A stretch of DNA of 64,000 nucleotides from Undibacterium sp. (GTDB lineage Bacteria; Pseudomonadota; Gammaproteobacteria; Burkholderiales; Burkholderiaceae_D), in contig JAUSNO010000018.1 of the NCBI GenBank assembly GCA_030645915.1, positions 1 through 64,000 of the forward strand, given 5' to 3'. The position numbers and the translations under genes are program-made. Below the pieces are notes generated by a model. The model did no database searches, was not told the origin of the DNA, and was given only the letters and a program-made list of their open reading frames with translations. Every line of letters begins with the position of its first letter. The stretch's first letter is position 1. This document shows positions 135 to 50,328 of this stretch, one piece after another.

Positions 135-142
135 ATTCGCAA

Positions 143-11020: not shown

Positions 11021-11099
11021 CCCTGGCACGCACTGTTCATGCGCTTCTCCGGCGTGCCTGCCCTGCAAGCCGCATGGGGATTGCGTGTTGGGCAGGGGG
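11021..11099. repeat. Dispersed hairpin repeat, copy 3 (diverged)
   Basis: GCACGCACTGTTCATGCG at 11026-11043 and CGCATGGGGATTGCGTG at 11071-11087 are imperfect inverted copies of the core seen at 34290-34364. CCCTG at 11021-11025 and CAGGG at 11093-11097 extend the pairing. It lies in the 420-base gap 10931-11350. Otherwise that gap shows only a short repetition of CCATTAC near 11108-11125 and no convincing gene. Confidence 0.65.
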
Positions 11100-11350
11100 C
11101 ATTTGTACCATTACTTACCATTACGCACGATTACATACCTGCAGCACACATCGCGACCTGGCGGCTGGCCGTTTTAGGCCAGGCTAACGGCTAAATCCGG
11201 GGCTGATAAGGGCCTGCAGTTATTTTCATGTTGCCGACTTCGTAGCAAAATAAACAAGAATATGAGAAACCCAAACGATATCAAGGTAAAATTCTAGCGA
11301 CAGACGCACCATCCATACAAAATACCGTCATCGCACCATAGAAAAATCCC

Positions 11351-33345: not shown

Positions 33346-34272
33346 ATGCCTATGTTTTCGAAAGTGCATGAAGTCGCCAGGCAAGTTGGTCAAATTATTA
33401 TCGGTAAGGATACCCAGATCAGGCAAGCTTTAGTCTGCTTGCTGGCTGGCGGTCATCTGCTGATCGAGGACGTGCCGGGTGTTGGCAAGACCACACTGGC
33501 GCATGCACTGGCAATTTCGCTGGGGCTTAACTTTAATCGCCTGCAATTTACCAGCGATCTATTGCCAGCCGACGTGATTGGCGTTTCTATCTTTGAGCGA
33601 GAAAAGAGCCAATTTGTGTTTCACCCGGGGCCGATATTTACGCAAGTACTGCTGGCCGATGAAATTAACCGCGCCACGCCAAAAACCCAGTCTGCCTTGC
33701 TAGAAGCAATGGAAGAGCATCAGGTAACGGCAGAAGGACAAACCCGCCAACTGCCGGAACCCTTTTTTGTGATCGCCACGCAAAACCCTACCCACCAGGT
33801 AGGTACTTTTGCACTGCCTGAATCGCAACTCGATCGCTTTCTGATGTGTTTATCGCTTGGCTATCCCGATGCGGCGGCAGAACGCGCATTATTGCTAGGT
33901 GAAGACAGGCGCAGCCTGCTCAAGGCGATGACGCCCGTCATGCAGCCACAGCAATTGATGCAGGCACAGCAAGCACTCAGGCAAATACACACCTCATCCT
34001 CATTGGTGGATTACGTACAATCGCTGGCGCATGCCACCCGTCAGGGTGATATTTTTGCTGAAGGCATGAGTCCACGGGCCGCCATCGCCCTGTTGCAAGC
34101 CGCTCGCGCCTGGGCCGCGCTGGAGGGGCGCGATCATGTGTTGCCGGAAGACGTGCAGGCGGTACTGATTCCTGTCATCGCACATCGTCTGCGTCCATTA
34201 AGGTCGGTCAGTGGAAAAGTCAATGCCAGCAGCGAACTTCTGGCGCAACTCATGCTAAAAGTAAGCGTATAA
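33346..34272 (+). CDS. MoxR-family AAA ATPase
   Basis: This 308-residue MoxR ATPase has Walker A GVGKTTLA (about 45-52), Walker B LLADEINRA, sensor ATQNPTHQVGTFALPESQLDRF and a C-terminal lid. It heads the MoxR-DUF58-TgpA module, where MoxR is thought to act as a chaperone for the partners. It is divergent from the HDAC-like gene; the 144 bases between (33202-33345) should hold both promoters. Confidence 0.92.
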   Translation: MPMFSKVHEVARQVGQIIIGKDTQIRQALVCLLAGGHLLIEDVPGVGKTTLAHALAISLGLNFNRLQFTSDLLPADVIGVSIFEREKSQFVFHPGPIFTQVLLADEINRATPKTQSALLEAMEEHQVTAEGQTRQLPEPFFVIATQNPTHQVGTFALPESQLDRFLMCLSLGYPDAAAERALLLGEDRRSLLKAMTPVMQPQQLMQAQQALRQIHTSSSLVDYVQSLAHATRQGDIFAEGMSPRAAIALLQAARAWAALEGRDHVLPEDVQAVLIPVIAHRLRPLRSVSGKVNASSELLAQLMLKVSV

Positions 34273-34289
34273 AAAATGTAAAACAGGCA

Positions 34290-34364
34290 GGCCCAGCACG
34301 CACTATCCATGCGGGCTGCAGAGGCGACAAGCCTGAAACCCGCATGGATAGTGCGTGTCAGGCT
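34290..34364. repeat. Dispersed hairpin repeat, copy 4 (best copy)
   Basis: CACGCACTATCCATGCGGG at 34297-34315 is the perfect 19-bp inverted complement of 34339-34357, with a 23-base loop. AAGCCTGA and TCAGGCTT lie just inside and outside on the right. It sits between moxR and the DUF58 gene, inside what would otherwise be a compact operon. Confidence 0.85.
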
Positions 34365-34424
34365 TACTTACTTTTAATTATTTTTTAGTTACTTTCACAA
34401 ATCTATCCCTCTTCAGTCCAACCA

Positions 34425-35402
34425 ATGCGCGCACTCACCTCCCTGCAACAAAAATTTCGCCGGCTCGTTTTCCTTGAGCACCGGCCAGAAAGCGGTGAGG
34501 TGTTTCTTAAGCAAAGGCGAGTGTTTACCGTGCCGAGCAAAGCGGGCTGGATGTTTATCGTCTTGTTGCTGGTACTGTTTATCGCTTCAACCAATTACAA
34601 TTTAAATCTAGGTTTTGCCCTGACTTTTGTGCTTGGTGGCTGCGCCTGCGTTAACGCATTGATGGGGTTTCGCAATCTCGCTTACCTGCATTTATCGGCA
34701 GGCACGGCTGCAGCAGTTTTTGCCGGAGAAGAAGCGCGCTTCACCTTGCACCTGATCAACCGCCGCAAGCATTATCGTTACGCGCTGCATGTCGGATTTA
34801 CTGAAAAAGGCCACTCTGAACAATCGGTCGACATCGCGCCGCATAGCCGCAGCACGGTACAGCTGAGCTACCCGACCGTGCGCCGGGGCTGGTTGCCCAT
34901 TCCAAGAGTACGCATACAAACCTGGTTCCCGCTAGGCTTGCTGCGCGCCTGGAGCACCTGGATGCCAGATACGCAGGCGTTGGTTTTCCCGCAACCGGAG
35001 CCGTTTTCACCACCACTGCCCATCATCGGCGCGGCCAGCAAGAATGGCCATGGCATGGCGGGGGACGAAGACTTTTCTGGCGTGCGGGTGTATCAAGCCG
35101 GAGATGCATTGAAGCATCTGGCATGGAAGCACATCGCCAGAGTCGATCTGGATGCCGGCGGCAGTTTGATTACCAAACAGTTTTCCGGCGGATCGGCGAG
35201 CGATATCCTGTTGGATTTCTCTGGCTTGTCCACCAGTCTGGATCTGGAACTGCGCTTATCCCGCATGACCAGCTGGGTGCTGGAAGCTGATGCCAGCGGC
35301 CTGGCATACGCGTTCCGCCTCGGTGCGACGGAGTATCCTGCCGCCATCGGCGAATCACACCGGATGGATTGCCTTAGTGCGCTGGCACTCTTTGAAAAAT
35401 AA
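34425..35402 (+). CDS. DUF58 domain membrane protein
   Basis: This 325-residue protein has two N-terminal membrane helices (GWMFIVLLLVLFIAS and a second near 60-80). A DUF58 domain follows, with the signature region YQAGDALKHLAWKHIAR (about 223-240). It is the normal middle gene of the MoxR-DUF58-TgpA module; a start at ATG 34425 fits the family. The TgpA gene begins 3 bases after its stop. Confidence 0.88.
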   Translation: MRALTSLQQKFRRLVFLEHRPESGEVFLKQRRVFTVPSKAGWMFIVLLLVLFIASTNYNLNLGFALTFVLGGCACVNALMGFRNLAYLHLSAGTAAAVFAGEEARFTLHLINRRKHYRYALHVGFTEKGHSEQSVDIAPHSRSTVQLSYPTVRRGWLPIPRVRIQTWFPLGLLRAWSTWMPDTQALVFPQPEPFSPPLPIIGAASKNGHGMAGDEDFSGVRVYQAGDALKHLAWKHIARVDLDAGGSLITKQFSGGSASDILLDFSGLSTSLDLELRLSRMTSWVLEADASGLAYAFRLGATEYPAAIGESHRMDCLSALALFEK

Positions 35403-35405
35403 GCC

Positions 35406-37460
35406 ATGCTGAAACTCGCCCCTCAGAAATCTGGCCTCAATGCCGCCATCGCGGGTGTCCATGCCAGCTGGAAAAAACAGCCCCTGTCACGCGACAAGGC
35501 CGATACCTTACTCCTGTTGACGGCGTGTTTGCTCGTGCTCATCCCTCACGTGCAGGCAATGCCCGGTTGGGTAAGTGCCTGCTGCGCAATGTTGATGCTG
35601 TGGCGTGGCTGGTTGACATTAACAGGGCGTCGCCTGCCTCCCTCCTGGATATTAATACCAATCTCCTTGCTGATGATGGCAGGCGTGTTTCTCACGTTCC
35701 GAACATTTTTTGGGCGAGAAGCCGGTGTCACCATGGTGGCCTTGTTACTGGCATGTAAATTACTGGAAATGCATGCAAAGCGCGATTTATTCGTCGTGAT
35801 TTTTCTCAGTTTTTTCGTCTTACTCACCAGTTTTTTTTATTCGCAAACGATCGCCAGCGCATTCATGGCACTGGCTGCCACTGCAACACTGCTCACCGCG
35901 CAGTTATCCTTTCAATACACTGGCGTCATTCCCTCTTTGTGGCAAAGAGCCAAACTTGGGGCACTGATTTTACTCTTGGCGATTCCACTGACGGTTGTCT
36001 CTTTCTTTTTATTTCCGCGTATTCAAGGCCCCTTATGGAGCTTGCCGGGCGATGCAAATTCTGCGCGCAGCGGCTTGTCGGACTCTATGTCGCCGGGCAA
36101 TATCAGCAATCTGGCTTTATCCGAAGATATCGCTTTCAGAGCCAAATTCTCTCCGGCCACACCTGAAAAATCACGGCTGTATTGGCGCGGCATTGTTTTC
36201 AACCGATTTGATGGAAGAACCTGGTCGCGTGAAGATGTCATACGTACCTCACGCCCGGCAGATCTTTACCGTACCAACGGCAAAGAAATCCGTCAGGAGA
36301 TCATTCTGGAAGCCAGCGGACAAGCCTGGTTGTTCGCTCTGGATATCCCGGGCAGCGCACCTGTGCTGGAGGATATGCGCACCAGCCTGAACACCCAATT
36401 TGAAATTCATAGTGCACGCAGTATCAATAACCGGATTCGCTATCAGGTCAGCTCTTTTCCAGACTACTTCCTGCAAACAGAACTAACGCCACAAGAATTG
36501 CAAACATCACTGGAATTACCGGCCGGCTTCAATCCTAAAACACTCAGCTACGCCGCTCAGCTGAGTCAGCGGATCAAGGGCAATCAGCAGCGCATTGACG
36601 CGGTGCTGCAGCTGTTTCGGCAGGAACAGTTCGTCTATACGTTAGAACCAGCGCTCCTGGGCGAAAACAGCATTGATGATTTTCTATTCACCACTCGCGC
36701 CGGTTTTTGCGAACACTATTCGAGCGCGTTTGTCGTATTGATGCGCAGCATGGGCATTCCGGCGCGCGTCATCACTGGCTATCAAGGAGGAGCGCCCAAC
36801 AACGTAGACGGCTATCTGGAGGTGCGCCAATCCGACGCCCATGCGTGGGCGGAGGTCTGGCTGACGGGACGCGGCTGGATCCGGGTTGATCCTACTGCAG
36901 CAGTGGCACCAGAACGTGTGATGCAAAATCTATTTTCAACACAACCTCGACGCGGTATGGCCGGTCTGGTCAATCTAGCCATGGGAAATAATTCCTGGCT
37001 GCACTCCATGAGAATGCAATGGGATGCCATCAATAATTCCTGGAACCTCTGGATACTCAATTACAACCAAGCAAAGCAAATGGACTTCATGCATTATCTG
37101 GGCCTATCTGAACTGGATTGGCCGCAACTAAGCCTGTTTTTTTTCCTCATGGCGCTGGCGGCAATGTCCGTCGTGGCCCTGCCCTTAATGCGCAATCGCC
37201 CGCAAATTTCTGCACTTGATCGGATATACTCATCACTGTGCCAAAGGCTCGCTGACAAAGGCATGGCCAAAGCGGCTCACGAGGGTCCGCATGCTTTTAT
37301 GCAGCGACTTCAAATCAGTCTGACTGAGGCACAATATGCACCCGTGCGACAATTTCTTACCATTTACATTGCAACTAAATATGGAAAAGCAAGCTTGCCT
37401 GAGGCAAGCGTCGTCCCACAATTGAAAACCTTGCTGACGCAATATCGTCAGCTTAATTAA
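35406..37460 (+). CDS. TgpA-type membrane transglutaminase-like protein
   Basis: This 684-residue protein has an N-terminal DUF3488 region with about six membrane helices (to residue about 210). A periplasmic transglutaminase-like domain follows, with Cys in TRAGFCEHYSSAF, His in SDAHAWAEVW and Asp in WIRVDPTAAV. A final transmembrane helix (LSLFFFLMALAAMSVVALPL) and a cytoplasmic DUF4129-like tail end the protein. In Pseudomonas the family member TgpA is essential. It is immediately downstream of the DUF58 gene. Confidence 0.9.
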   Translation: MLKLAPQKSGLNAAIAGVHASWKKQPLSRDKADTLLLLTACLLVLIPHVQAMPGWVSACCAMLMLWRGWLTLTGRRLPPSWILIPISLLMMAGVFLTFRTFFGREAGVTMVALLLACKLLEMHAKRDLFVVIFLSFFVLLTSFFYSQTIASAFMALAATATLLTAQLSFQYTGVIPSLWQRAKLGALILLLAIPLTVVSFFLFPRIQGPLWSLPGDANSARSGLSDSMSPGNISNLALSEDIAFRAKFSPATPEKSRLYWRGIVFNRFDGRTWSREDVIRTSRPADLYRTNGKEIRQEIILEASGQAWLFALDIPGSAPVLEDMRTSLNTQFEIHSARSINNRIRYQVSSFPDYFLQTELTPQELQTSLELPAGFNPKTLSYAAQLSQRIKGNQQRIDAVLQLFRQEQFVYTLEPALLGENSIDDFLFTTRAGFCEHYSSAFVVLMRSMGIPARVITGYQGGAPNNVDGYLEVRQSDAHAWAEVWLTGRGWIRVDPTAAVAPERVMQNLFSTQPRRGMAGLVNLAMGNNSWLHSMRMQWDAINNSWNLWILNYNQAKQMDFMHYLGLSELDWPQLSLFFFLMALAAMSVVALPLMRNRPQISALDRIYSSLCQRLADKGMAKAAHEGPHAFMQRLQISLTEAQYAPVRQFLTIYIATKYGKASLPEASVVPQLKTLLTQYRQLN

Positions 37461-37477
37461 TCTCATCATTTCTCATT

Positions 37478-38602
37478 TTGAAATCATCATCCCGCCTCAC
37501 TGTAGCCGCCCTTCTCTGCGCAATAATCGCCGTTTCACCAAATGCAACTGCGGCAAATAAATCCAGGAAAAAGGCAAAAGCTGTCAAAGTCACCAAAACT
37601 GTCAAAGCTTCCGCAGTCAGCGCAGAATTTGTCCATTTCTCCCAATGGAAAGAAGTCGCGGAGTTTATTGATCAAATGGTGACGCGACATGGTTTCGACA
37701 AAGCACGACTCGACACAACATTTGATCAGGTACGTTATGTTGAAAGCGCCATTCAACTCATCAAGCCAGCGCCACCGGGGCGTCCCAAGAACTGGAAAGC
37801 CTATCGCGCAAGATTTGTTGAAAAAAACAGAATTGATGCAGGTATCGCATTTTGGGATACTCATGCCGATGCACTGGACAAAGCCGAAAGGGAATATGGC
37901 GTTCCCGCGGAAATTATTGTTGGCTTGATCGGCGTCGAAACTATCTATGGTCGTAATACAGGTAATTTCCGTGTCATGGATGCGTTAACCACGCTCGCTT
38001 TTGCCTATCCCGATACGCCAACACGACTCACGAGAATGGCATTTTTCCGGACCGAATTGGAGAACCTGTTGTTATTGTCGCGCGACTCCTTAATCGACCC
38101 GTTTTCGTTCAAAGGCTCTTATGCTGGTGCGATAGGCTTGCCCCAATTCATGCCTGGCAGTATACGAAGTTATGCCGTGGATTTTAATGGCGATGGACAG
38201 ATCGATTTACTGACGTCTCCTGCCGATGCCATCGGCAGTATTGCAAATTACTTGTCCCTGCATGGATGGAAAAAAGGATTGCCCACTGTCTTTCCTGCAA
38301 CGCTTATCAGCGTAGAAACAGATTTGGACAAATCTGCGGACAAACTAAATACGGTACTCTCGCAAGGGTTAAAGGCCAGTTATTCATTAAACGAACTCAG
38401 GCCGTTAGCGACGACTGCCAGCCAGGATATACCGGACCATCTTCTATATGGATTGGTTGACTTGCAAAACGGAAATGACCCTACCGAATATTGGCTAGCG
38501 ACAGACAATTTTTTTGCGATTACGCAATACAATCGCAGTTATTTCTATGCAATGTCTGTTATCGATTTGGGCAGAGTAATTGCATTGGCAAGATTAAAAT
38601 AA
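37478..38602 (+). CDS. mltB: Membrane-bound lytic murein transglycosylase B
   Basis: This 374-residue protein uses TTG at 37478 as start, giving a signal peptide (LTVAALLCAIIAVSPNATAA). No good ATG lies between this and the conserved region. The MltB (SLT family 3) core has PAEIIVGLIGVETIYGRNTG with the catalytic Glu, FKGSYAGAIGLPQFMPGSI and YAVDFNGDGQIDL. It lacks a lipobox, so it may be soluble in the periplasm. It starts 17 bases after the TgpA gene. Confidence 0.88.
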   Translation: MKSSSRLTVAALLCAIIAVSPNATAANKSRKKAKAVKVTKTVKASAVSAEFVHFSQWKEVAEFIDQMVTRHGFDKARLDTTFDQVRYVESAIQLIKPAPPGRPKNWKAYRARFVEKNRIDAGIAFWDTHADALDKAEREYGVPAEIIVGLIGVETIYGRNTGNFRVMDALTTLAFAYPDTPTRLTRMAFFRTELENLLLLSRDSLIDPFSFKGSYAGAIGLPQFMPGSIRSYAVDFNGDGQIDLLTSPADAIGSIANYLSLHGWKKGLPTVFPATLISVETDLDKSADKLNTVLSQGLKASYSLNELRPLATTASQDIPDHLLYGLVDLQNGNDPTEYWLATDNFFAITQYNRSYFYAMSVIDLGRVIALARLK

Positions 38603-38881
38603 ATCTAGCTCAATTTGACAATTGGTATCAAATTGAAACAAATGTGTACAAAATCAGATAATATTCAATTAATATTGTTAAATAGTATTTTTTATACTAC
38701 AGTAACATTATCTAATGATGCATTTACGTGCACTAAAAGCAATGTGTCAAGAGATTTAACACTTTTTATACATTTTTCTAAAGAATTATTTCAATTTTAA
38801 CGATACAATATTACCGTTTGAATAATTTTTTATTGAAGCAACATTCCTAGCGCATCAATAAACATAAACAGCGAGGTAATT
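38603..38881. other. AT-rich intergenic region with an inverted repeat
   Basis: 279 bases, clearly richer in A/T than the surroundings. TCAATTTGA at 38610-38618 and TCAAATTGA at 38628-38636 form a 9-bp inverted repeat just after mltB. The rest has long A/T runs and no convincing gene. It presumably holds the promoter of the small helix-turn-helix gene at 38882 (RBS GAGG 5 bases before its ATG). Confidence 0.5.
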
Positions 38882-39187
38882 ATGGCAAACCTGACACAAC
38901 TTGAATCTGACGAGATTGATTACGATCCAAATAATTTATTGGATACCCTGATCAAGCAATTACATTTAAAAAATGATGCAGCTCTATCGAGAGCACTGGA
39001 AGTAGCACCACCAGTCATCAGCAAAATTCGTCACCGTCGTCTGCCTGTTGGCGCGTCGTTGTTGATACGTATGCACGAAATCAGCGATGTCAGCATCAAG
39101 GATTTACGTGGCTTGATGGGCGACCGCAGAGCAAAATTTCGCATCAGCGATAAGCAATTCAAACCAAAAGACGGCGAGACCAGCTAA
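38882..39187 (+). CDS. Small helix-turn-helix protein of unknown role
   Basis: This 101-residue protein contains a Cro/XRE-like segment, NDAALSRALEVAPPVISKIR (about 31-50). It is followed by HRRLPVGASLLIRMHEISD, matching the helix pattern of single-domain HTH regulators that recognise start-up sites. The C-terminal tail is charged. RBS GAGG precedes the ATG. It is monocistronic, preceded by an AT-rich region and followed by a strong terminator. No partner toxin is adjacent. The name of the family is not known to me. Confidence 0.7.
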   Translation: MANLTQLESDEIDYDPNNLLDTLIKQLHLKNDAALSRALEVAPPVISKIRHRRLPVGASLLIRMHEISDVSIKDLRGLMGDRRAKFRISDKQFKPKDGETS

Positions 39188-39204
39188 GATCGTTGTTGAT
39201 AGTT

Positions 39205-39246
39205 AAAAAAGCCTGAAACGCGCATTAGCGTATCTCAGGCTTTTTT
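39205..39246. terminator. Bidirectional terminator between the HTH gene and cysM
   Basis: AAAAAAGCCTGA (39205-39216) pairs with TCAGGCTTTTTT (39235-39246), with additional ACGC/GCGT pairing inside. The A/T runs on both sides suit convergent transcription. Confidence 0.85.
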
Positions 39247-39269
39247 CGTTATAACGCTCTACTCAGATT

Positions 39270-40172
39270 TTATGCCGGAAATACGCCTGTAGATAAATAA
39301 CGATCACCCCGATCGCAAACGATAAATACTATCGTCGCGTTTTCTACAGTTTCAGCGATCCGGAGTGCAACCTCACAAGCGCCAGCAGCCGAAATTCCAC
39401 AAAATATACCTTCCTCCGCAGCCAAACGTCGGGCCATCAACTCTGCCGATGATTGACTAACGGATTCAATTTGATCAATTCTGGATTTATCATAAATCTT
39501 CGGCATATAAGCTTCTGGCCATTTTCGGATTCCCGGAATTTGCGAACCGTCTTCGGGCTGCGCACCTACAATCTGAATCTGCGAATTCATCTCTTTTAGA
39601 TAACGGGAGACGCCCATAATCGTTCCCGTTGTTCCCATTGCACTGACAAAATGCGTAATCTTGCCGGCGGTGTCACGCCATATTTCAGGACCGGTAGAAT
39701 CATAGTGAGCAAGCGGATTATCCGGATTTCCAAATTGATCAAGGATAGTTCCTCTCCCCTCCTTTTGCATTTTCTCAGCGAGGTCACGTGCATACTCCAT
39801 ACCGCCAGTTTTTGGCGTCAAAATAATCTGTGCGCCATAAGCAGCCATACTTTGCCTACGCTCAATGCTTAAATTTTCAGGCATGAGTAACACCATTTTA
39901 TATCCGCGCATGGCAGCAGCCATCGCTAACGCTATGCCGGTATTACCACTGGTTGCCTCAATTAAAGTATCGCCGGGTTTGATTTGCCCACGCTCTTCAG
40001 CGTGCTTGATCATGGCAAGTGCAGGTCTGTCTTTTACCGACCCTGCTGGATTATTACCTTCCAATTTACCAAGAATAATATTGTTCCGACGTTTAAGCTC
40101 ATCCCCGGGAAGTCGTTGCAACATAACAAGTGGGGTATTTCCTATGGTATCTTCAATGGTCAGGTAAGTCAT
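39270..40172 (-). CDS. cysM: Cysteine synthase B
   Basis: This protein has 300 residues from ATG 40172. It is a PLP enzyme making cysteine (or S-sulfocysteine) from O-acetylserine. The PLP lysine is in NPAGSVKDRPAL, and the phosphate loop is SGNTGIALA. CysM-type features are the start MTYLTIEDTIGNTPLV and the block QIPGIRKWPEAYMPKIYD. The gene is convergent with the HTH gene. Confidence 0.92.
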   Translation of the reverse strand: MTYLTIEDTIGNTPLVMLQRLPGDELKRRNNIILGKLEGNNPAGSVKDRPALAMIKHAEERGQIKPGDTLIEATSGNTGIALAMAAAMRGYKMVLLMPENLSIERRQSMAAYGAQIILTPKTGGMEYARDLAEKMQKEGRGTILDQFGNPDNPLAHYDSTGPEIWRDTAGKITHFVSAMGTTGTIMGVSRYLKEMNSQIQIVGAQPEDGSQIPGIRKWPEAYMPKIYDKSRIDQIESVSQSSAELMARRLAAEEGIFCGISAAGACEVALRIAETVENATIVFIVCDRGDRYLSTGVFPA

Positions 40173-40264
40173 ATGGCATAAGCACTGTATAAACAAAGTA
40201 CCATTTTAAACGTTGCAGCTGGTTCATGCTTGATTGCTATCAAAAGCAGTTTAGCCAGGCAAAT

Positions 40265-40300
40265 GAAAAAATCCCGAGATGCCGCGCATCAGGGGATTTT
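40265..40300 (-). terminator. Terminator of the ComEA-like gene
   Basis: On the minus strand AAAATCCC...GATGC pairs with GCATC...GGGATTTT, followed by a T run (A run at 40265-40270 on the plus strand). It lies 39 bases after the stop of 40339-40776. Confidence 0.7.
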
Positions 40301-40338
40301 ACATTCAGGATCCGGTCATACCAGATCAATGACATTAA

Positions 40339-40776
40339 TTACTTGGTTGCTGGCGCTTTTGCTGAAGCCGCAGCTTTTTCTTCTTTTTTCGCCTTCGCCT
40401 CGGCCTTTAATTCCGCCTTAGTTTTTACTGCTGGCTTTGAATCTACCTTTGCTGAGGCTTCTGTTTTTTCAGGTGCTTTAGCTGTTGCTTTTGTGGCGAC
40501 ACCAGATTTAGATTGGCCATTTACCGTCAAACCTGCTTCGGATAATTTGGCAGCACTCTTATCGCCAATACCTTTAACACGAGCTTCAAAATCGGCCCAA
40601 TCCTTAAAATTCCCACCCTTGCTACGCTCTTCTAAAATAGCTTTGGATGTTGCCGGGCCTATCCCTTTTACCCCATCAAGTGCCGCCTGATCACCCTTAT
40701 TCACGTCAACACCGGCAAATGCAAAGCCCATGGAAACAACCAGAGTGACGACAGCCATCAATAATTTCTTGAACAT
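40339..40776 (-). CDS. ComEA-like helix-hairpin-helix protein with Lys/Ala-rich tail
   Basis: This 145-residue protein has a signal peptide (LLMAVVTLVVSMGFAFA). Two HhH motifs (about 30-85) follow: ALDGVKGIGPATSKAILEER and VKGIGDKSAAKLSEAG. A long tail rich in Ala and Lys ends the protein. ComEA-type proteins bind DNA in the periplasm during uptake; this tail is not typical of ComEA and may be an added nucleic-acid-binding region. It sits where hldD is often found in related genomes. Confidence 0.78.
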   Translation of the reverse strand: MFKKLLMAVVTLVVSMGFAFAGVDVNKGDQAALDGVKGIGPATSKAILEERSKGGNFKDWADFEARVKGIGDKSAAKLSEAGLTVNGQSKSGVATKATAKAPEKTEASAKVDSKPAVKTKAELKAEAKAKKEEKAAASAKAPATK

Positions 40777-40950
40777 TTAAATACTCCAAAAGTAGTTAAT
40801 TTTAAGTACATCATTTTGCAGCCTTGATTTGAGCATTAATACCGTCGTTCAAAACTAAAATCCGATATTATTTTCATCTCATCACCAATAACGTCCATAA
40901 ATAAGCGAGGTTGACTAGCGCAAGTAACTTACCATAAAAATAACAATAAT

Positions 40951-41871
40951 TTACATATCTGGAAATAATTCTTCTCGAGTTACGGTAGCCGTACCCAGCT
41001 TACCTACGACTAAACCACCTGCACGGTTCGCCATCAGCACCGCATCTCTCATAGATTTGCCTTCCGCCAGCATAGTTGCCATAGTGGCAATGACAGTATC
41101 GCCCGCGCCGGACACGTCGAAAACTTCTCTCGCCATCGCCGGCACGTGAAACACTTCACCATCAGTATAGAGCGTCATCCCTTCCTCGGATCTGGTTAGC
41201 AATAGCGCTTTTAAATCGAGCTTACGACGCAAGTTCTGTGCTTTTTCGGTCAAGTCAGATTCGCTTGTCCATTCTCCAATGATTTGTTTCATTTCGGACT
41301 TATTTGGCGTAAGCACCGTCGCACCCGCATATCGGGAAAAATCGTTTCCTTTTGGATCAACCAAAATCAATTTATCAGCATCTCTGGCAGTGGAAATCAT
41401 TTCAACAATGTTCACCAGACTGCCCTTGGCATAATCGGAAAGAACGATTACATCATAGTCTGAGATCAAGGCATTAAAACGCGACAGTTTGTCACGCAAT
41501 ACCATTTCTGTCGGTTTTTCTTCAAAATCGATACGCAGTAATTGTTGCTGTCGTCCAATAACTCTCAATTTAATGATGGTGGAAATGGCCTGATCACGAT
41601 TGAGATAACTTTGAATACCAGAATCTCGCAATAGACTCTCGACAATATTGCCCGCCTCGTCTACTCCTATTACTCCCAGCAAGCCAGCTGCCATGCCTAA
41701 CGCTACCGCATTACGCGCTACGTTCGCCGCACCGCCCAATCGCTCCTCACTCTTTTCTATGCGTACTATTGGCACGGGTGCCTCAGGTGAAATACGATTG
41801 ACTTCACCAAACCAGTAACGGTCCAACATCACATCACCAACGACGAGCATGCGTTTTACTTGCTTATCCAT
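40951..41871 (-). CDS. rfaE1: D-glycero-beta-D-manno-heptose-7-phosphate kinase
   Basis: This 306-residue PfkB/ribokinase-family kinase is the kinase half of HldE. The start VKRMLVVGDVMLDRYWFGEV and the ATP site DVSGAGDTVIATMATML are clear. The cytidylyltransferase domain of bifunctional HldE is absent, so it is of the separate (HldA/RfaE1) type. It begins 1 base after ugd. No hldD or cytidylyltransferase gene follows in the window. Confidence 0.9.
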   Translation of the reverse strand: MDKQVKRMLVVGDVMLDRYWFGEVNRISPEAPVPIVRIEKSEERLGGAANVARNAVALGMAAGLLGVIGVDEAGNIVESLLRDSGIQSYLNRDQAISTIIKLRVIGRQQQLLRIDFEEKPTEMVLRDKLSRFNALISDYDVIVLSDYAKGSLVNIVEMISTARDADKLILVDPKGNDFSRYAGATVLTPNKSEMKQIIGEWTSESDLTEKAQNLRRKLDLKALLLTRSEEGMTLYTDGEVFHVPAMAREVFDVSGAGDTVIATMATMLAEGKSMRDAVLMANRAGGLVVGKLGTATVTREELFPDM

Positions 41872-41872
41872 A

Positions 41873-43246
41873 TCAAATCCGAGTCAATACTGAACGGCCA
41901 ATTCCGTGATACTCGACACCAATTTCGGTCATTGCCGCGGGGTCAAACAAATTTCTGCCATCAAAAATAATTGAATGTTTCAATCTTAATTTGACCTGCT
42001 CGAAATCAGGGCTTCGAAATGTCTTCCATTCGGTAACAATCACTAACGCATCAGCCTGCGTTAACGCATCCATAGGATCAGCAGCAAAGCGGATTTTTTC
42101 CAGCAAATGCGGCATGTCAGAGAAATCTAATGCAAATACGCGCTTTGCTTCAGTCATGGCAACAGGGTCATAAATGGCAACGCTTGCACCAGCGCTCAGC
42201 AATTCCATCAGCAACACACGTGACGAGGCTGCGCGCATATCGTCGGTATTCGGCTTAAAAGCCAATCCCCAAACAGCAAAATGCTTGCCGGTCAAATCCT
42301 CCCCAAAACGCTTTTTAATTTTGCCACCAAGTATTTGCTTTTGTTTGGCGTTGACGGCTTCCACTGCATGCAGAATCAATAAATCCTGGCCGTAATCTTG
42401 CGCGGTACGCTCCAACGCCTGTACATCTTTGGGAAAGCAGGATCCGCCGTAACCGCAACCAGCATACAGAAAACTATGACCTATGCGGGGATCTGAACCG
42501 ATGCCACGTCTCACCGCTTCGATATCTACACCAACACGATCAGCTAGATTTGCCAGCTCATTCATAAAAGAAATCCGCGTCGCCAACATCGCATTCGCAG
42601 CATATTTAGTGAACTCAGCCGAGCGCACGTCCATCCAGTAAGTACGTTCATGATTGCGATTAAATGGAGCGTACAGAGTTTTCATTCGCTCTCTCGCGAT
42701 ATCACCATGAGGACTATCATCACATCCGATCACAATTCGATCAGGCCGCATGAAATCCTCTACTGCAGCGCCTTCTTTCAAAAACTCGGGATTAGATACA
42801 ACTGAAAAAATTGCGCTCACATCACGTGACGTCAACTCACTCTGAATTGTCGCTGCCACTCTTTCCGCCGTCCCTACCGGGACAGTCGATTTATCTACAA
42901 TGACTTTAAAACCAGTCATATATCTGCCAATGCTACGAGCTGCGGCCAAAACATATTGCAGGTCCGCGGAACCATCTTCATCCGGTGGCGTACCAACCGC
43001 AATAAACTGTATATCGCCGTGCGCGACGCCTGCCTCAATATCGGTAGAGAAAACAATCCGACCTGCGGCGCGATTACGTGTAACTACCTCGTCCAACCCT
43101 GGCTCGTGAATAGGGATACCGCCATTATTAAGTGTATCAATCTTACTTTGGTCGACATCTAGGCAAAATACATCATTGCCGAGCTCCGCCAGACAGGCAC
43201 CTGTTACCAAGCCTACATAGCCTGTACCAATAATAGTTATTTTCAT
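41873..43246 (-). CDS. ugd: UDP-glucose 6-dehydrogenase
   Basis: This 457-residue protein has the NAD-binding start [20 protein letters not shown]. The catalytic cysteine is in [15 protein letters not shown], and the C-terminal domain ([16 protein letters not shown]) is complete. It makes UDP-glucuronate for surface polysaccharides. It is followed directly by the heptose kinase gene, suggesting a small surface-sugar operon. Confidence 0.93.
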
Positions 43247-43301
43247 TTCGGACTACACCTAATTAATTGTTCCTTCGTGTTGAGTACATTCTCAGCACGG
43301 T

Positions 43302-44477
43302 TTAAATCATTACGTTCAACTCTTCCGTACGACGCGGTGGATATGTCTCCCAGCGACTGCAACCGGGGCATTGCCAATAAAATTGACGCGCCTTGAAACC
43401 GCAATGTGAACATTGATAACGAGTTAACTTCTGAGCATATCCATGCACCAAATTCTTCACCAGAAATAGTTCGGGACGCACTTCAGGGGTTGCCACCATT
43501 AAACGAGCATCCAGCAATTTATCTAACCCCAAGAGGGTCGGAGTACGTCGCAATTCAGCAACAACTAACTCATTGGCTGCTTCAACAGTATCAAGCTCCA
43601 ACGTCGCCTTAAAAACTACCTCAAGCAAATCAATGGACGGTGCTTCCGCAAGATAGCCCATAAGAAGATTTAAACCTTCTTGTGGCCGCTCCAATTTACG
43701 GTATCCATCCATCAATCGTTGAGCGACCAAAGCCACATGTGGAACACTTTGTTGTTCAACGCGTCGCCAGGCTAATACCGCGCTTTCGATATCACCGTTT
43801 GCCAGATGAACATCACCCAACAAGATCGCTGCCCGCACGCTATGACGGTCAGTGGCCAGCGCTTTGTCTAACATATTCAATGCTGACTCAGGGTGCGTAT
43901 GAACCAGTTCATCCTGAGCTATTTCGCAATAAAATTGAGCAATTTCCTTTTGTCGGCCGCCAGCACCAGACTCTTGTAATGCATGCGCAGCGTCTATTGC
44001 ACGAGCCCACTCTTTTTCGCGTTGATAAATCTCGAGTAAAGCACGCCTTGCTTGAATTGAATACTGTCCAGCAACTAATAAATTAAACGTTTCCTCTGCC
44101 CTATCAAGCAATCCTGCCTTAAGGTAATCCTGACCAAGCTCAAACATCGCTTGCGTTTGCTGTTCCAATGGCATATCTGGTCGAGACAACAGATTTTGAT
44201 GGACGCGAATAGCGCGTTCAGTCTCACCTCGACGACGAAATAAATTACCGAGCGCAAAATGTAAATCTATTGTTTCAGGATCAAGTTTAACTATCTCAAT
44301 GAAGGCATCAATCGCCTTATCATGTTGGTCATTAAGTAAAAAATTTAAACCTTTAAAATATCCTTGCGGCAAAGTACGCGACTCTGATAATAACTGCCGA
44401 ATATCGATTCGAGCGGCAATCCAGCCCAAAGAAAAAAATAGGGGAATGCCCAGTAACAACCAAATTTCAAATTCCAT
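43302..44477 (-). CDS. lapB: Lipopolysaccharide assembly protein LapB
   Basis: This 391-residue protein has an N-terminal membrane helix (IWLLLGIPLFFSLGWIAARI). A run of TPR repeats covers about 40-330, and a C-terminal rubredoxin-like zinc module has C-x2-C twice (YQCSHCGFK, WQCPGCSRW). LapB controls LpxC turnover and LPS assembly. It follows lapA by 23 bases, the usual pair. Confidence 0.93.
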   Translation of the reverse strand: MEFEIWLLLGIPLFFSLGWIAARIDIRQLLSESRTLPQGYFKGLNFLLNDQHDKAIDAFIEIVKLDPETIDLHFALGNLFRRRGETERAIRVHQNLLSRPDMPLEQQTQAMFELGQDYLKAGLLDRAEETFNLLVAGQYSIQARRALLEIYQREKEWARAIDAAHALQESGAGGRQKEIAQFYCEIAQDELVHTHPESALNMLDKALATDRHSVRAAILLGDVHLANGDIESAVLAWRRVEQQSVPHVALVAQRLMDGYRKLERPQEGLNLLMGYLAEAPSIDLLEVVFKATLELDTVEAANELVVAELRRTPTLLGLDKLLDARLMVATPEVRPELFLVKNLVHGYAQKLTRYQCSHCGFKARQFYWQCPGCSRWETYPPRRTEELNVMI

Positions 44478-44500
44478 TTTATTATGTGTGCCTATTCAGG

Positions 44501-44815
44501 TCAGATATTTCGGATGCTGTCGGATTGTCGAATATTTACGTTAGAGAACTGTCCCGCCAATCGTTCTTTCTCGATTTCAGCGATTGTTTTTTTATGAATT
44601 GAAATATCTTTTCGATGACGAAACACAATTGGAACCATGGCAAGCACTCCAAGAATGGCGCCAATTAAAAAAAATGCCAGCAATAAAATGACTAGCGGTG
44701 CTGATTGCGCATACCCAAAAAAATACTGCAAAGTAACAATTTGATCATTTTTCAAAGCAAAGCCAAAAAATAAAACAAACAAGATCACTGCAAAAATTTT
44801 AGAAACAATTTTCAT
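44501..44815 (-). CDS. lapA: LapA-domain inner membrane protein
   Basis: This 104-residue protein has two transmembrane helices (about 5-22 and 41-63). The LapA (DUF1049) pattern NDQIVTLQYFFGYAQSAPLV lies between them, and a short coiled coil follows. It is the partner of LapB, directly downstream. Confidence 0.88.
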   Translation of the reverse strand: MKIVSKIFAVILFVLFFGFALKNDQIVTLQYFFGYAQSAPLVILLLAFFLIGAILGVLAMVPIVFRHRKDISIHKKTIAEIEKERLAGQFSNVNIRQSDSIRNI

Positions 44816-44921
44816 CTCAGTACCTTATATCAGTCCAAACAAATAACATGCCATTAACAGTATTATTAACGACTCAATAATAGACACGCTACTATCTACA
44901 GAAATAAGCGAAATTGTACGT

Positions 44922-44957
44922 GAAAAAAAACGGCATATCGGAAATCCGTTATGCCGC
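44922..44957 (-). terminator. Terminator after ihfB
   Basis: On the minus strand, CGGCAT...CGGA pairs with TCCG...ATGCCG (44931-44956), followed by eight T (A run 44923-44930 on the plus strand). It would end the rpsA-ihfB transcript before lapA. Confidence 0.85.
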
Positions 44958-44989
44958 CTTCATTTGTTACGTCAGATGCTCGCCTTCAT

Positions 44990-45295
44990 TTAATCATCCA
45001 GGATAGGTTGCCCCACCATAGCATCCACTCTCTCCCGTAATTCTTTACCTGGTTTGAAGTGTGGTACCCGTTTTTCGGGGACCATCACCTTATCGCCAGA
45101 TTTGGGATTACGTCCAATTCGTGGTGGGCGACTATTTAACGAAAAACTGCCAAAACCACGAATCTCGATACGTTGACCAACTGCCAAGGCAGATGACATC
45201 GCATCAAGTATGGTCTTGACAGCGACATCCACATCTTTACCAACCAGTTGTGGATATCGCTCCGCCAGACGGGCAATCAGCTCCGACTTAGTCAT
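44990..45295 (-). CDS. ihfB: Integration host factor subunit beta
   Basis: This 101-residue HU/IHF-family protein starts [17 protein letters not shown] and has [15 protein letters not shown] and [14 protein letters not shown], the DNA-bending arm. It is directly downstream of rpsA, its usual place in proteobacteria. Confidence 0.95.
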
Positions 45296-45336
45296 AGTTT
45301 TTGAAACATCGAAAACCTCAATGACTTAGTTCTTGC

Positions 45337-47058
45337 TTAGTTCTTGTTTTCGAGCTTTGCTTTCAACAATGCGCCCAAGCTAGTTGTGCCTGAAGCTGCA
45401 TTTGAATCAACAGCTGTAGACATTTTTTGCATGGCTTCTTGTGTCTCAGCGGAATCTTTTGCCTTGATAGACAATTGAATACCACGTGCCTTACGATCAA
45501 TGTTCAGAACCAAAGCTTCAACGGAATCGCCAACTTTCAGGTGAGTACCAGCATCTTCCACGCGGTCGCGGGATATTTCTGATGCACGCAAGTAGCCTTC
45601 AACTTCGTCTGCCAATTGGATCACTGCGCCTTTGGCTTCAACAGATTTAACTGTACCAGTCACAATCGCGCCTTTGTCATTCATTGCGCAATAGTTGTTG
45701 AATGGGTCGCCTTCCAATTGCTTCACGCCTAACGATACGCGCTCACGCTCAACATCGATAGCCAGAACGATGGCTTCCAGTTCGTCACCTTTCTTGAAGC
45801 GACGTACAGCTTCTTCGCCAGTTTCGTTCCAAGACAAGTCAGACAAATGCACCAGACCGTCGATGTTGCCAGACAAACCGATAAATACGCCGAAATCAGT
45901 GATGGATTTGATTGCGCCGCGAACTTTATCGCCTTTTTTGAAGTTCAGTGAGAAGTCATCCCAAGGATTAGCTTTGCACTGCTTCATACCCAGGCTGATA
46001 CGACGACGCTCTTCGTCGATTTCCAGAACCATGACTTCAACTTCATCGCCCAATTGAACAACTTTGTTTGGTGCCACGTTCTTGTTAGTCCAGTCCATTT
46101 CAGAAACGTGGACCAGGCCTTCAATACCTTGCTCGACTTCAACAAACGCGCCGTAGTCAGTCAGGTTCGTAACTTTACCGAACAAACGGGTGTGTTGTGG
46201 GTAACGACGTGACAGACCTGTCCAAGGATCGTCGCCCAATTGTTTTACGCCCAATGAAACACGGTTTTTCTCTTGATCAAATTTCAAAATCTTGGCAGTA
46301 ATCTCTTGACCGACTGTCAACACTTCTGAAGGATGACGCACACGACGCCATGCCAGATCAGTGATGTGCAACAAGCCATCGATGCCACCCAGATCAACGA
46401 ATGCGCCGTAGTCAGTGATGTTTTTAACAACACCAGTAACCACTGTGCCTTCTTTCAGTGTTTCCATCAATTTTTGACGCTCTTCGCCCATCGATGCTTC
46501 AACTACGGCACGACGTGACAGAACAACGTTGTTACGCTTACGATCGAGCTTGATAACTTTGAATTCCAAAGTTTTGCCTTCGTACGGCGTTGTATCTTTA
46601 ACTGGACGTGTATCGACCAGTGAACCCGGCAAGAAAGCGCGGATACCATTTGTCAAGACAGTCAGACCGCCTTTGACTTTGCCATTGACGGTACCAATGA
46701 CCATTTCGCCAGATTCCAGCGCTTTTTCCAGCGCCAGCCATGAGGCCAAACGTTTTGCTTTGTCGCGGGACAAAATAGTGTCGCCGAAACCGTTTTCCAG
46801 CGAATCGATCGCTACGGAAACGAAATCACCGATGTTAACTTCCAGTTCGCCCTGGTCGTTTTTGAATTCTTAAACAGGGATAAAGGCTTCAGATTTGAGG
46901 CCAGCGTTCACGATCACGAAATTGTGGTCGATACGAACGACTTCAGCAGAAATCACTTCACCGGAACGCATATCTTGGCGTGACAGGGATTCTTCGAATA
47001 AAGCTGCGAAGCTATCTGCACCGGTTGCGAAATCTTGGGACATGAAAACAGTAGACAT
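45337..47058 (-). pseudogene. rpsA: rpsA, 30S ribosomal protein S1, interrupted by an in-frame TAA at codon 63
   Basis: The full frame is 574 codons including the stop, normal for S1 (six S1 domains). Reading starts MSTVFMSQDFATGADSFAAL and gives KSEAFIPV, then TAA (plus strand 46870-46872), then [16 protein letters not shown] and the rest without interruption. Relatives have Glu there (IPVEEF), so one G-to-T change of GAA explains it. The remaining frame is otherwise perfect: S1 domains such as [20 protein letters not shown] are intact. S1 is normally essential in proteobacteria, so a sequencing or assembly error is the likeliest cause. A real nonsense allele with read-through or a second copy is the alternative. 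Confidence 0.85.
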
Positions 47059-47179
47059 AAATATTCACGAGTTAGCCGGAATAGTGCAAATGCGCCATTT
47101 ACCGGGTTAGGTTAAACAAACCCGCACAAGCTTTGCGCCTGCACGAGAACATTATCTTTCGACCATGCTAAATATAAAA

Positions 47180-47848
47180 TCAGGTCGAAAGCTTTACTGC
47201 ATTGGCATATAGATCGAGAACAATGTGAACGGCCTCATCGACCGTCATATCAGATGTATCCAGAATATAAGCCCCTGGCGCAGGCTTGAGAGGGGCGCTA
47301 GCGCGGGTTGTATCCCTTGCATCGCGTTCAGTCAAATCTTTTACCAAGTCTTTCATACTAGCAGAAAAACCCTTTTCAATCAATTGCTTATATCGACGAT
47401 CCGCACGCGCCTCTACACTTGCCGTCAAATACACTTTTTGAATTGCATCCGGGAAAATAACCGTTCCCATATCCCGTCCGTCTGCCACCAATCCCGGTGT
47501 AGTACGAAAAGCAATTTGCAGATCAACCAATGCCTGGCGCACCTTTGGCAATACAGCGATTTTGGATGCAGCCACACCAATTGCTTCAGCGCGTACTGCA
47601 TCAGTAACATCCTCGCCATCCAGAAAGACATGTCCTTTTACAAATAGACAAGGTAATACGCGCGCCATTGCGGCCAATCCGTCTTCATTATCCAGAGCAA
47701 TACCGCGCCTTGTCGCTGACAAGGCCGTTAAACGGTACAACGCGCCCGAATCGAGATAGTGAAACCCCAGGTGCTTGGCAACTCTGTGCGCCACCGTGCC
47801 CTTGCCTGAAGCTGTGGGGCCATCTATCGTGATAACCGGGAAATTCAA
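47180..47848 (-). CDS. cmk: Cytidylate kinase
   Basis: This 222-residue protein has the P-loop [18 protein letters not shown] at the start, [16 protein letters not shown] and the usual end. It phosphorylates CMP/dCMP. Its start overlaps the aroA stop by 4 bases. An inverted repeat, CTTTCGACC (47156-47164) and GGTCGAAAG (47183-47191), spans its stop and the gap before rpsA. Confidence 0.95.
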
Positions 47849-49182
47849 AATAACTCCTTATGATTGATTTTGGCAAACGCCTCAAAATAATCCGGAAAAG
47901 TTTTGGCCACACATTTGGGATCATTAATGCGCATGGCAGCACCGCGCCGCGCCGCGCCGTCCAAAGTGGCCAACGAGAAACACATTGCCATCCTGTGGTC
48001 ATCGTAGGTATCGATGGTAGCGGGAAGAATTGTCGCTGGCGGCGTTACGGCCATATAGTCCGCCCCCTCTTCCACGATTGCCCCAACTTTGCGCAATTCA
48101 GTCGCCATTGCGCTGATCCTGTCAGTTTCTTTCACGCGCCAGCTGGCTATATTACGCAATACCGTGGTCCCATTTGCATACAAAGCCGCTACTGCAATCG
48201 TCATCGCGGCATCTGGAATATGATTGAAATCCATATCAATCGCCTGCAACACGCCATTCGATTTAGCCTCTATCCAATTGTCGCCGCGGGTAATGGTGGC
48301 GCCCATTTTTTCCAGTGCTTCAGCAAAGCGCACGTCACCCTGGATGCTATTAAGACCCACACCTTCGACTCGAATCGGGCCGCCAGCAATCGCGCCCGCC
48401 GCCAAAAAATAGGAAGCAGAAGAAGCGTCCCCTTCAACATGAATCACTCCCGGCGACACATAATGCTGCCCTGCTTTAACTGTAAACGCCTGCCATCCAT
48501 CCCGCTCTACTGTCACGCCGAAACGCTGCATCAGGTTCAGGGTAATTTCTATGTATGGCTTGGAAATCAGCTCGCCGATCACCTCAATAACCACATCATG
48601 ATGTTGTGCCATCAGCGGCGCAGCCATCAGCAAGGCGGTCAAAAACTGGCTCGATACACTGCCTTTCACCTGCATGCGCTGTGCATGCATATGTCCACGA
48701 CGAATATGCAAGGGAGGAAAACCCGGATTGCCCGTATACGTAATTTGCGCCCCGACCGCATTCAATGCATCGACCAGATCGCCAATCGGCCTTTCATGCA
48801 TGCGCGCCACGCCATGCAAGGTGTAATCGCCGCCCAACACCGCTAACGCCGCCACCAAGGGCCGGATAGCGGTCCCTGCATTGCCCATAAACAGATCGGC
48901 CTGATGAATGGGTAAAACACCATTAACGCCCTGCACTGTGTAGTTTTGCGTAGATCCTTCTTGCGTCCAATGCACGCCCAGTGCATGCAAGGCATTCAGC
49001 ATCACCAGCGTATCGTCCGATGCCAGCAAATCGAGTATTTGCGTATTTCCTTCAGCCAAAGCTGCCAGCAACAAAATACGATTGGAGATACTCTTGGATC
49101 CAGGCAAACGCACGCATCCCTGAGCCTGCATGACCGGATGCAAATCGATATAGTGCGGATAATGTTTATTGTGCTGATTCAT
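47845..49182 (-). CDS. aroA: 3-phosphoshikimate 1-carboxyvinyltransferase (EPSP synthase)
   Basis: This 445-residue protein has the [37 protein letters not shown] and [18 protein letters not shown] blocks of AroA. It makes 5-enolpyruvylshikimate-3-phosphate in aromatic amino acid synthesis. It is part of the tyrA-aroA-cmk series. The motif NAGTAIRPL (with Ala rather than Gly-Thr-Ala-Met-Arg-Pro) differs slightly from the E. coli type. Confidence 0.94.
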
Positions 49183-49249
49183 GTTTAATCTTTGTTAAGC
49201 AATGTAGTAAAAATGGCGCTGAAGAAATTGACTGAATCGAATATTGAAT

Positions 49250-50179
49250 TCAATCGCCGCCATCCTTATTCTGTTTTTCTGCCGATTCTATGGCGCTGAT
49301 CCAATTATGTCGCGCCCTCTGTGCATTGGTGTAAATATCCTCAATCGCCTGCGCATCAGCGTTTTGCAAATGATGACGTAAGCGCGCCAGCTGTGCGGTA
49401 TAAGAATCAAGCTCCTGCAACATGGCCGTGCGATTTGCGAGGGTAATATCGCGCCACATTTCAGGCGATGACCCGGCGATACGGGTAAAGTCGCGAAAGC
49501 CACTGGCAGCATATTGAAACAGTCTATCAGCATGCGGCTTTCTGGCAATATCGTCGACCAAAGCATACGCCAGTAAATGTGGCAAGTGGCTGACCGAAGC
49601 AAACACGGCATCATGTTCAGCCGGACTTAAATAATGAATCACGGCACCGCATTGCTGCCACGCGCTCGCCACCACGGCGACATCGGCATCGGCATTTTCT
49701 GGCAAACGCGTGATGACTGTTTTTTTGCCTGCATATAAGTCCACCAGCGCGGCGTCGGGCCCGTTCAATTCACGGCCTGCGATAGGATGCGCCGGCACAA
49801 ATTGCGCCAGTTTCTCTTTCATCACTTGCCGCGCCGCAGCCACCACATCGCTCTTGGTGCTGCCTGCGTCTGTAACAATGGTACCGGGCTGCAAATACGG
49901 TTGTATCGAGGATAAAATGGCAGCGGTCTGGGCGACGGGTGCCGCGATCAGGATAAGATCGGCATTGCACACCGCCGCTTCTACCGAAACGGCGATCTCG
50001 TCAATGATGCCCAGCTGTTGCGCCCGCTGCAAAGACGCAAGACTGCGGCCGACGCCAACAACGCTTTGCACGGCGCCGGCTTTTTTCAGCGCCAGCGCAA
50101 ACGAGCCACCTATCAAGCCTACGCCGAAGATAGCGATACGCTTGAAAGTTTGCGGCTTTATGGTTCCTGCATTTCCCAT
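49250..50179 (-). CDS. tyrA: Prephenate dehydrogenase
   Basis: This protein has 309 residues from ATG 50179 (an in-frame TTG at 50194 is possible). The NAD motif is IAIFGVGLIGGSFALALK, and PAHPIAGRELNGPDAALVDL is the prephenate-binding region. It is a monofunctional TyrA without chorismate mutase. It lies between pheA and aroA; related genomes often have hisC here, which is absent in this stretch (only a repeat lies between). Confidence 0.92.
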   Translation of the reverse strand: MGNAGTIKPQTFKRIAIFGVGLIGGSFALALKKAGAVQSVVGVGRSLASLQRAQQLGIIDEIAVSVEAAVCNADLILIAAPVAQTAAILSSIQPYLQPGTIVTDAGSTKSDVVAAARQVMKEKLAQFVPAHPIAGRELNGPDAALVDLYAGKKTVITRLPENADADVAVVASAWQQCGAVIHYLSPAEHDAVFASVSHLPHLLAYALVDDIARKPHADRLFQYAASGFRDFTRIAGSSPEMWRDITLANRTAMLQELDSYTAQLARLRHHLQNADAQAIEDIYTNAQRARHNWISAIESAEKQNKDGGD

Positions 50180-50217
50180 CCGAACACCATTCAATATTTT
50201 CTCAAATCAGGAATCAA

Positions 50218-50284
50218 CAGCGCACTATCCATGCGGGTTTTCAGGCACTTTCATGCCAGAAGGCGCATGGATGCTGCGTGTTCT
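50218..50284. repeat. Dispersed hairpin repeat, copy 5
   Basis: GCGCACTATCCATGCGGG at 50220-50237 and GCGCATGGATGCTGCGTG at 50263-50280 are near-inverted copies of the shared core. The inner TCAGGCA and TGCCAGA add pairing. It lies between pheA and tyrA. Confidence 0.75.
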
Positions 50285-50328
50285 ATTTTTCAATTAAATC
50301 AAACGGATTCAATTGAGGCCAATTGAAT

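Follow-up and report, generated by a model that had tools for sequence, protein, structure and literature searches.

The window, i.e. the whole stretch of 64,000 nt analysed here, carries five members of a dispersed family of hairpin repeats, and the family is real: it is abundant and forms hairpins. Its architecture is REPIN-like, as its origin probably is too, and with moderate confidence we favour the reading that it is an untagged family of REPIN-like hairpins, spread by transposition of the folded single strand through an enzyme acting in trans. It appears to be a new family of a type of repeat that is already known; the family was not found in the accessible parts of the literature, in a search that was far from exhaustive and used neither the genus name nor the sequence.

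Copies in the window

The initial annotation had described a dispersed hairpin family with copies in five places, and our data bear this out. With up to two mismatches, the core GCATGGATAGTGCG matches the window seven times versus 0.58 expected, a number reached by none of 100 shuffles; one of the seven (11305) is a stray, and the copy at 7040, which has diverged too far, is not among them. The covariance model R1, the training alignment of which contained four of the five window copies (the 143 copy was outside training), recovers all five places, and a second model, R2, at E ≤ 0.001 finds four of them and misses the half element at 143. The set consists of four whole elements of around 105 bp and one half element:

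34273–34381, minus strand: full element in the gap that separates the MoxR-like ATPase gene from its neighbour (R1 104.7 bits on one strand and 98.5 on the other; R2 81.3 and 80.8 bits; DNA fold z −6.9)
34297–34315, plus strand: its left arm, 19 bp, read from the sequence as a perfect inverted repeat of 34339–34357
34339–34357, plus strand: its right arm, 19 bp, read from the sequence
34316–34338, no strand: loop of this copy (the 34290 copy), compared with the loops of the same-site copies in G006 and G016
50195–50304, minus strand: full element in the gap between the prephenate-dehydrogenase-like and the chorismate mutase-prephenate dehydratase genes (R1 71.2 bits)
11003–11111, minus strand: full element with mismatched arms (R1 85.8 bits; fold z 0.06)
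7024–7132, plus strand: full element whose outer arm carries a short TTGCGTG tandem (R1 63.5 bits)
143–185, plus strand: half element consisting of a single arm unit, with its own GGCAGGC/GCCTGCC as closure (sequence; R1 52.7 bits)

Direct reading also confirmed the perfect 19-bp inverted repeat reported for 34297–34357, formed by CACGCACTATCCATGCGGG (34297–34315) and CCCGCATGGATAGTGCGTG (34339–34357) around a 23-nt loop. When folded as single-stranded DNA, the copy at 34276–34381 gave a strong structure (z −6.9), the 50198 and 7024 copies moderate ones (z −3.7 each) and the half element (130–200) a weak one (z −2.1), while 11006–11111 folded no better than its shuffles (z 0.06); this copy was the exception among six full copies folded, the other five of which beat their shuffles. 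A scan of the window with Rfam at gathering scores matched only a tmRNA gene (59092–59452) and not the hairpin element. Just upstream of the half element and reaching into it, window positions 21 to 141–174 show 83–87 % identity to several places in the relatives G016 and G014, the segment 21–174 being part of another repeated segment.

All five copies had been placed between genes, which holds for the four that sit in gaps between ORFs; the fifth was seen only as lying upstream of a 4-hydroxyproline epimerase gene (above cut-off). Two of these four gaps separate a dapA-like gene from a GntR-like regulator, both below cut-off, and a small ORF without any match from a GspE/PilB-like ATPase gene, also below cut-off. 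A third lies between the MoxR-like ATPase gene and the next ORF. MoxR and DUF58 are the names that we presume for the neighbours of the 34290 copy: in NCBIfam, the MoxR-like gene had only sub-threshold AAA ATPase matches and the DUF58-named gene none. The fourth gap, described earlier as lying between pheA and tyrA, has on one side a chorismate mutase/prephenate dehydratase gene, which is above cut-off, and on the other a prephenate-dehydrogenase-like gene, the best match of which, at 313.6 bits, falls below the curated cut-offs shown.

Structure of the element

Two alignments were used, i.e. A1, with 38 copies from this genome (G000; the other G numbers denote relatives of the same genus), and A3, with 33 copies from sampled stretches (14 own, 13 from G016 and 6 from G006). 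For the latter, 33 of 40 places were taken; the half copy at 143, the copy at 7019, L080:13099 with its extra units, and four that are degenerate or broken (L064, two in L068 and L078:125) were left out. In both, the consensus begins with an A-rich flank, an outer stem (approximately GGCATGCCCA) and the arm CGCA-N6-ATGCG, and continues through a loop of usually 26–28 nt to the arm CGCAT-N6-TGCG, the outer stem and a T-rich flank; a unit of around 40 nt is present twice, in inverted orientation, on either side of the loop. Each arm alone can form a small CGCAT-N5-ATGCG hairpin, and most of the folded copies are predicted to make one long hairpin of around 100 nt as single-stranded DNA or RNA. 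RNAalifold on the 38 copies of A1 returned only the two small within-arm hairpins, with no long hairpin and 0 covarying pairs. Half elements occur as well, as at window 143–185.

GTAG is absent from the consensus and the conserved columns of A1 and A3, and an unpaired CGTC at the end of an 8–9 bp stem is absent from the consensus of both. At least one 14-bp unit, CTCCGCCTAGTGCG, is inserted in an arm in eight of 50 first-set copies, two of the 50 being from outside MAGs, and L059 has such units in both arms. One to three of these units, or close variants, were seen inside an arm at L030, L036, L043, L045, L054, L058, L059 and L080:13099. An integron attC, suggested by GTTGGGC at the end of one copy, was considered and dropped on inspection by eye.

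Copy number and distribution

The whole genome, 4.17 Mb in 39 contigs, has 249 matches to the core at up to one mismatch, a count in which a full element may score twice, once per arm, and none to the reversed pattern. At E ≤ 0.001, 464 kb of sampled sequence from this genome gave 21 R1 places, and 1.08 Mb from G016 and G006 gave 68, i.e. 89 places in 1.544 Mb of stretches set at round-number coordinates in three genomes. This bears out the dispersed, REP-like family of the initial annotation, with numerous additional copies here and in the relatives. In scans of whole genomes, no more than 150 candidates per genome were scored with R1 and 91 with R2, and totals were therefore estimated from the stretches. 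Extrapolation gives around 190 elements here and around 300 in each of the two relatives, although the density of G006 may be inflated, since its contigs came from earlier hit lists. L175, L208 and L209, at least, cover places earlier listed as element-like, and many of the G016 places also appear in an earlier hit list, although that list was not used for their choice.

A crude ORF caller puts 65 of the 89 places into gaps of 100 nt or more, 18 at edges or in overlaps and six within ORFs of 110 codons or longer, and 61 of the 68 places in G016 and G006 are in non-coding DNA. The distribution within the genus is patchy: in a survey of 43 genomes with R2 (E ≤ 1e-8, strict filters), six were rich in matches (at least 91 each in G000, G006, G014 and G016, 70 in G011 and 52 in G018), three had 10–23 (23 in G051, 19 in G015 and 10 in G021) and 34 had 0–2, i.e. 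one or two in nine genomes and none in 25. The exact 19-base arm was found on two contigs (one Burkholderiales MAG and one other MAG) of a collection of genomes from 84,980 species, which may omit near relatives of this genome. Plasmid and phage records had no match to the 34276–34381 copy.

Paired variation of the arms

The proposal that the arms co-vary holds for G016, G006 and the pooled alignment A3, but not for this genome alone. For the first set of 38 own copies, an exact core match in one of the arms had been the criterion; this holds the matched arm constant and biases the set, and therefore round-number stretches were sampled instead. This first set gave no signal of co-variation, with 73.9 % paired positions versus 72.3 % in shuffles (10/500), a covariation score reached in 63/500, and 476, 4604 and 1287 of 5000 in duplex self-versus-swap tests. 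In A3, the long hairpin has 73.7 % standard pairs versus 67.9 % in shuffles and a covariation of 0.245 versus 0.166 (sd 0.012; 0/500 shuffles), and all slid registers score far lower, while the number of pairs with changes on both sides was unremarkable (82/500). Since the A3 shuffles mix three genomes, species differences add to this signal.

A permutation test within genomes compared the pairing of the six middle arm positions in an element with the pairing to other elements, 84 of the 89 places having usable arm anchors. In the first sample of 38, 4.00 positions were paired versus 3.35 (2/10000), with 11/10000 for G016 (n=13) and 45/10000 for G006 (n=6); the 19 elements of this genome, taken alone, showed no co-variation (3.00 versus 2.95 paired; 4503/10000). 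A later separate sample of 46 elements from G016 and G006 gave 4.09 versus 3.21 of six positions (0/10000), and 7/10000 and 9/10000 for the two genomes, respectively. The middle hexamer is identical in both arms of 16/34 elements of G006 and 10/31 of G016, versus 4.4 and 4.9 when permuted, and of 2/19 in this genome. The commonest hexamer is GGATAG here (7/38 arms) and GGAATA in G016 (24/62), while GGGATA (18/68) and GGAATA (14/68) are the commonest in G006.

Over 8 nt the outer stem showed weak self-pairing, reached by 154/5000 permutations, and over 4 nt none (1675/5000). An excess of G-T over A-C on the canonical strand, as for a selected RNA strand, was not seen (45 versus 52). In G016, two copies separated by 1.4 kb differ in the core by a single base, and these cores lie inside different outer arms. 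The results show that the arms travel or change as pairs, which does not by itself imply selection on pairing: the permutation tests ignore the relatedness of copies, and copied subfamilies would therefore yield the same signal.

Occupancy of sites in relatives

At the 50218 site, nine of 13 relatives fetched have a short spacer only, G016 and G014 are occupied, and G022 has another sequence without an R1 match; the G006 stretch fell outside the site. A copy is found at the 34290 site in two of seven relatives fetched (G016 and G006), and no copy at the 11003 site in G011, G022, G006 and G016, at the 7024 site in G016 and G022, or at the 143 site in G014, G016 and G006. Altogether, nine own sites were followed into at least one of G006, G014, G016, G011 and G022, of which five are occupied in one or more of the relatives fetched for them and four in none of these. 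Tracing from the G016 copies revealed two more sites that are occupied in both G016 and this genome.

Shared sites often differ in arm type between species: at the 34290 site, for example, the type is CTATCC/GGATAG here and TATCCC/GGAATA in G006. By contrast, G014 carries GGATAG at L134:18230. The loop of the 34290 copy has an identity of 0.78 to its G006 counterpart and of 0.70 to that of G016, values reached by 5.2 % and 28 % of non-orthologous pairs, respectively. Only four of 17 ortholog pairs (this genome and G016 at site A, this genome and G006 at site C, G016 and G014 at sites I and J) have a loop identity that fewer than 2 % of non-orthologous pairs reach. Since most other loop pairs are indistinguishable from chance, we do not claim shared descent at every shared site, and sites without distinctive loops may reflect independent insertion into the same gap. 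Insertion junctions or target duplications were not resolved in the relatives compared, because their matching genes are mostly only 70–88 % identical and the spacers barely align.

Apart from the element sites, G014 and G016, which elsewhere differ by some 10–20 %, share an identical 3.6-kb block and a block of around 16.8 kb with 99.7 % identity, including a 16.3-kb run free of differences (L160/L161 and L169/L180). These near-identical blocks reflect either recent transfer or an assembly mix.

RAYT genes and their repeats

The RAYT (Y1-Tnp) gene that the initial annotation proposed to look for in the same genome is present, in one intact and one broken copy. The RAYT family NF047646 had matches in all 14 genomes searched, above the curated cut-off in 10, and in this genome one intact gene (C29:26319–26768) and one in two pieces (C3:39352–39803) exceeded it, besides some weaker relatives; PF01797 missed the intact gene that NF047646 found. 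The intact RAYT is flanked by GTAGGGTGCGCCATGCGCACC palindromes, and no core match (up to two mismatches) lies in the 1.5 kb on either side. Beside the broken one, GTAGGGCGGGT palindromes lie to one side and a GGGCGGGT/ACCCGC palindrome, which is similar but without GTAG, to the other; one copy of the hairpin element lies around 0.5 kb away. Neither of these two loci is bracketed by the element.

At all eight loci put through a repeat finder (L102, L105, L106, L108, L118, L119, L120 and L128, the intact own gene being among them), the RAYT gene lies between palindromes that contain GTAG. As these palindromes differ in sequence, several REP families coexist in the genus. In G006, G014 and G016, an R1 copy is no more than 600 nt away at four of eight RAYT loci versus around 1.0 expected from the density in non-coding DNA, the expectation resting on a crude ORF caller and the four including one broken gene (L129); a link between RAYT and the element is thus weakly possible. 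Three of these four loci were put through the repeat finder (L129 was left out) and have GTAG palindromes flanking the gene. At L128, a RAYT locus of G016, an R1 copy lies on one side, and repeat-finder relatives of that copy lie on both.

Origin of the family

The reading we favour would have copies spread by transposition of the folded single strand, with a mobilising enzyme that would act in trans and recognise the hairpin arms, and further copying or gene conversion among copies may then have led to the species-specific commonest arm sequences. It is supported by the core count of 249 versus 0 and the 89 R1 places in 1.544 Mb, as well as by the mostly non-coding placement in G016 and G006, the paired arm variation, the commonest hexamers that differ between genomes, the two neighbouring G016 copies with nearly identical cores, the patchy distribution in the genus and the empty sites. 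Weighing against it are the lack of resolved junctions or target duplications and of a replichore strand bias in G016 (33/71), the latter giving no support to lagging-strand transposition. The same applies to the unbracketed own RAYTs above cut-off, the lack of co-variation in this genome, the RNAalifold result without the long hairpin, the one of four full window copies that folds no better than shuffles, and the window copy without a plasmid or phage match. The initial annotation had called the repeats REP-like or RAYT-mobilised, and of this the REP-like, dispersed hairpins stand. A REP or REPIN family mobilised by a RAYT of the genus appears quite unlikely to us: RAYT-like matches in 14/14 genomes, the proximity at four of eight loci, the copy near the broken own gene and the arrangement at L128 speak for it, but all eight loci put through the repeat finder are bracketed by GTAG palindromes of several sequences, the element lacks GTAG, and element-free genomes, such as G042 and G054, also have strong RAYT matches. 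A bolder reading, possible but not likely, is a RAYT-independent family under concerted evolution, in which copies would keep their gene neighbourhoods from species to species while both arms of hundreds of copies would drift jointly to a species-specific sequence (GGATAG commonest here, GGAATA or GGGATA in relatives), tracking a changing hairpin-recognising protein or single-strand transposase.

Hairpins selected at the 3′ ends of genes, as bidirectional transcription terminators or mRNA-stabilising structures that are not, or no longer, mobile, would also account for paired arm changes, and we consider them unlikely. T tracts (at least five T in 8 nt) lie beside 51 % and 62 % of 84 elements on the two sides versus 31 % of non-coding controls, in 43 of 65 cases a stop is the gene boundary closest to the element, and convergent gaps are in excess by gap number (18 versus 10.5 expected, p 0.04), but not by gap length (p 0.13; crude ORF caller). 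The T tracts and the proximity of stops fit 3′-end hairpins or insertion beside terminators and are not decisive. Moreover, a terminator scan of 33800–51000, which covers two elements and limits the loop to 8 nt, flagged only two small stems, both inside the 50218 element, with 17 sites versus 20.4 in shuffles; the missing excess of G-T over A-C and the 25 of 43 genomes of the genus without a match likewise speak against selected hairpins. A miniature inverted-repeat transposon moved by the DDE transposase of a conventional insertion sequence would share the terminal inverted organization, the mostly intergenic location and the length of around 100 bp. It is very improbable, given that target duplications were not resolvable and that no transposase ORF was seen where copies cluster; no mobiliser gene was recognized between neighbouring copies when ORFs were read by eye in six stretches of relatives (L160–L165) and one of this genome (L043).

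Relation to known repeats

ERIC elements are enterobacterial imperfect palindromes of around 100–130 bp located between genes, and are not known to have a mobiliser. Compared by description only, the present element resembles them as an intergenic imperfect palindrome of around 100 bp.

REPINs are REP doublets that form hairpins, and, going by their description in PMC3116915, the likeness extends to two conserved inverted units with a less conserved spacer, a predicted hairpin, many extragenic copies, compensatory changes in the stem and single units as likely remnants. Here, inverted units with a spacer (A1 and A3) and a high extragenic copy number were found, and compensatory changes were found in G016, G006 and the pooled alignment but not in this genome alone. 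In contrast to REPINs, the element has no GTAG-type head tetranucleotide, and the own RAYTs above cut-off are not bracketed by it.

According to a REP survey (PMC3733652), GTAG and CGTC define two tagged super-families, to which most of the REPs surveyed belong, and untagged families exist, those named being from M. tuberculosis, D. radiodurans, Bordetellae, Brucellae and Cyanobacteria. CGTC REPs are described there as mostly alphaproteobacterial, with stems of 8–9 bp and a terminal CGTC motif, and no dedicated transposase was found for them. Like CGTC-tagged and untagged REPs in that account, our element is palindromic, dispersed and often paired; unlike the former it lacks a terminal CGTC, and it is likened to the named untagged families by description, not by sequence. 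The inverted repeats of TIRYTs and TIRtrons, which PMC3733652 defines by a flanking Y1 transposase gene, are also dispersed and without GTAG, but the element does not flank the own RAYT loci above cut-off.

A tag-less family with shared sites, paired arm variation and commonest arm sequences that differ between species makes a good natural test case for the question of what spreads palindromic repeats, and what homogenizes them, where a cognate RAYT is not evident. Since one genus has both element-rich and element-free species, the mobiliser can be sought by comparing which genes they have and lack.

Other repeats were seen beside the family. Inverted repeats of the CTTTGCCGCAGAGGCGCAGAG type adjoin an element copy at L171 (around 6230–6640) and at L181. 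A second dispersed repeat of around 100 bp, with the ends GGACTTACGCAAAA/TTTTGCGTAAGTCC, lies at L132:9070–9170 (contig C5 of this genome, around 282069–282169) and recurs, mostly at around 80–90 % identity, in dozens of places in G016, G014, G006, G018 and G022.
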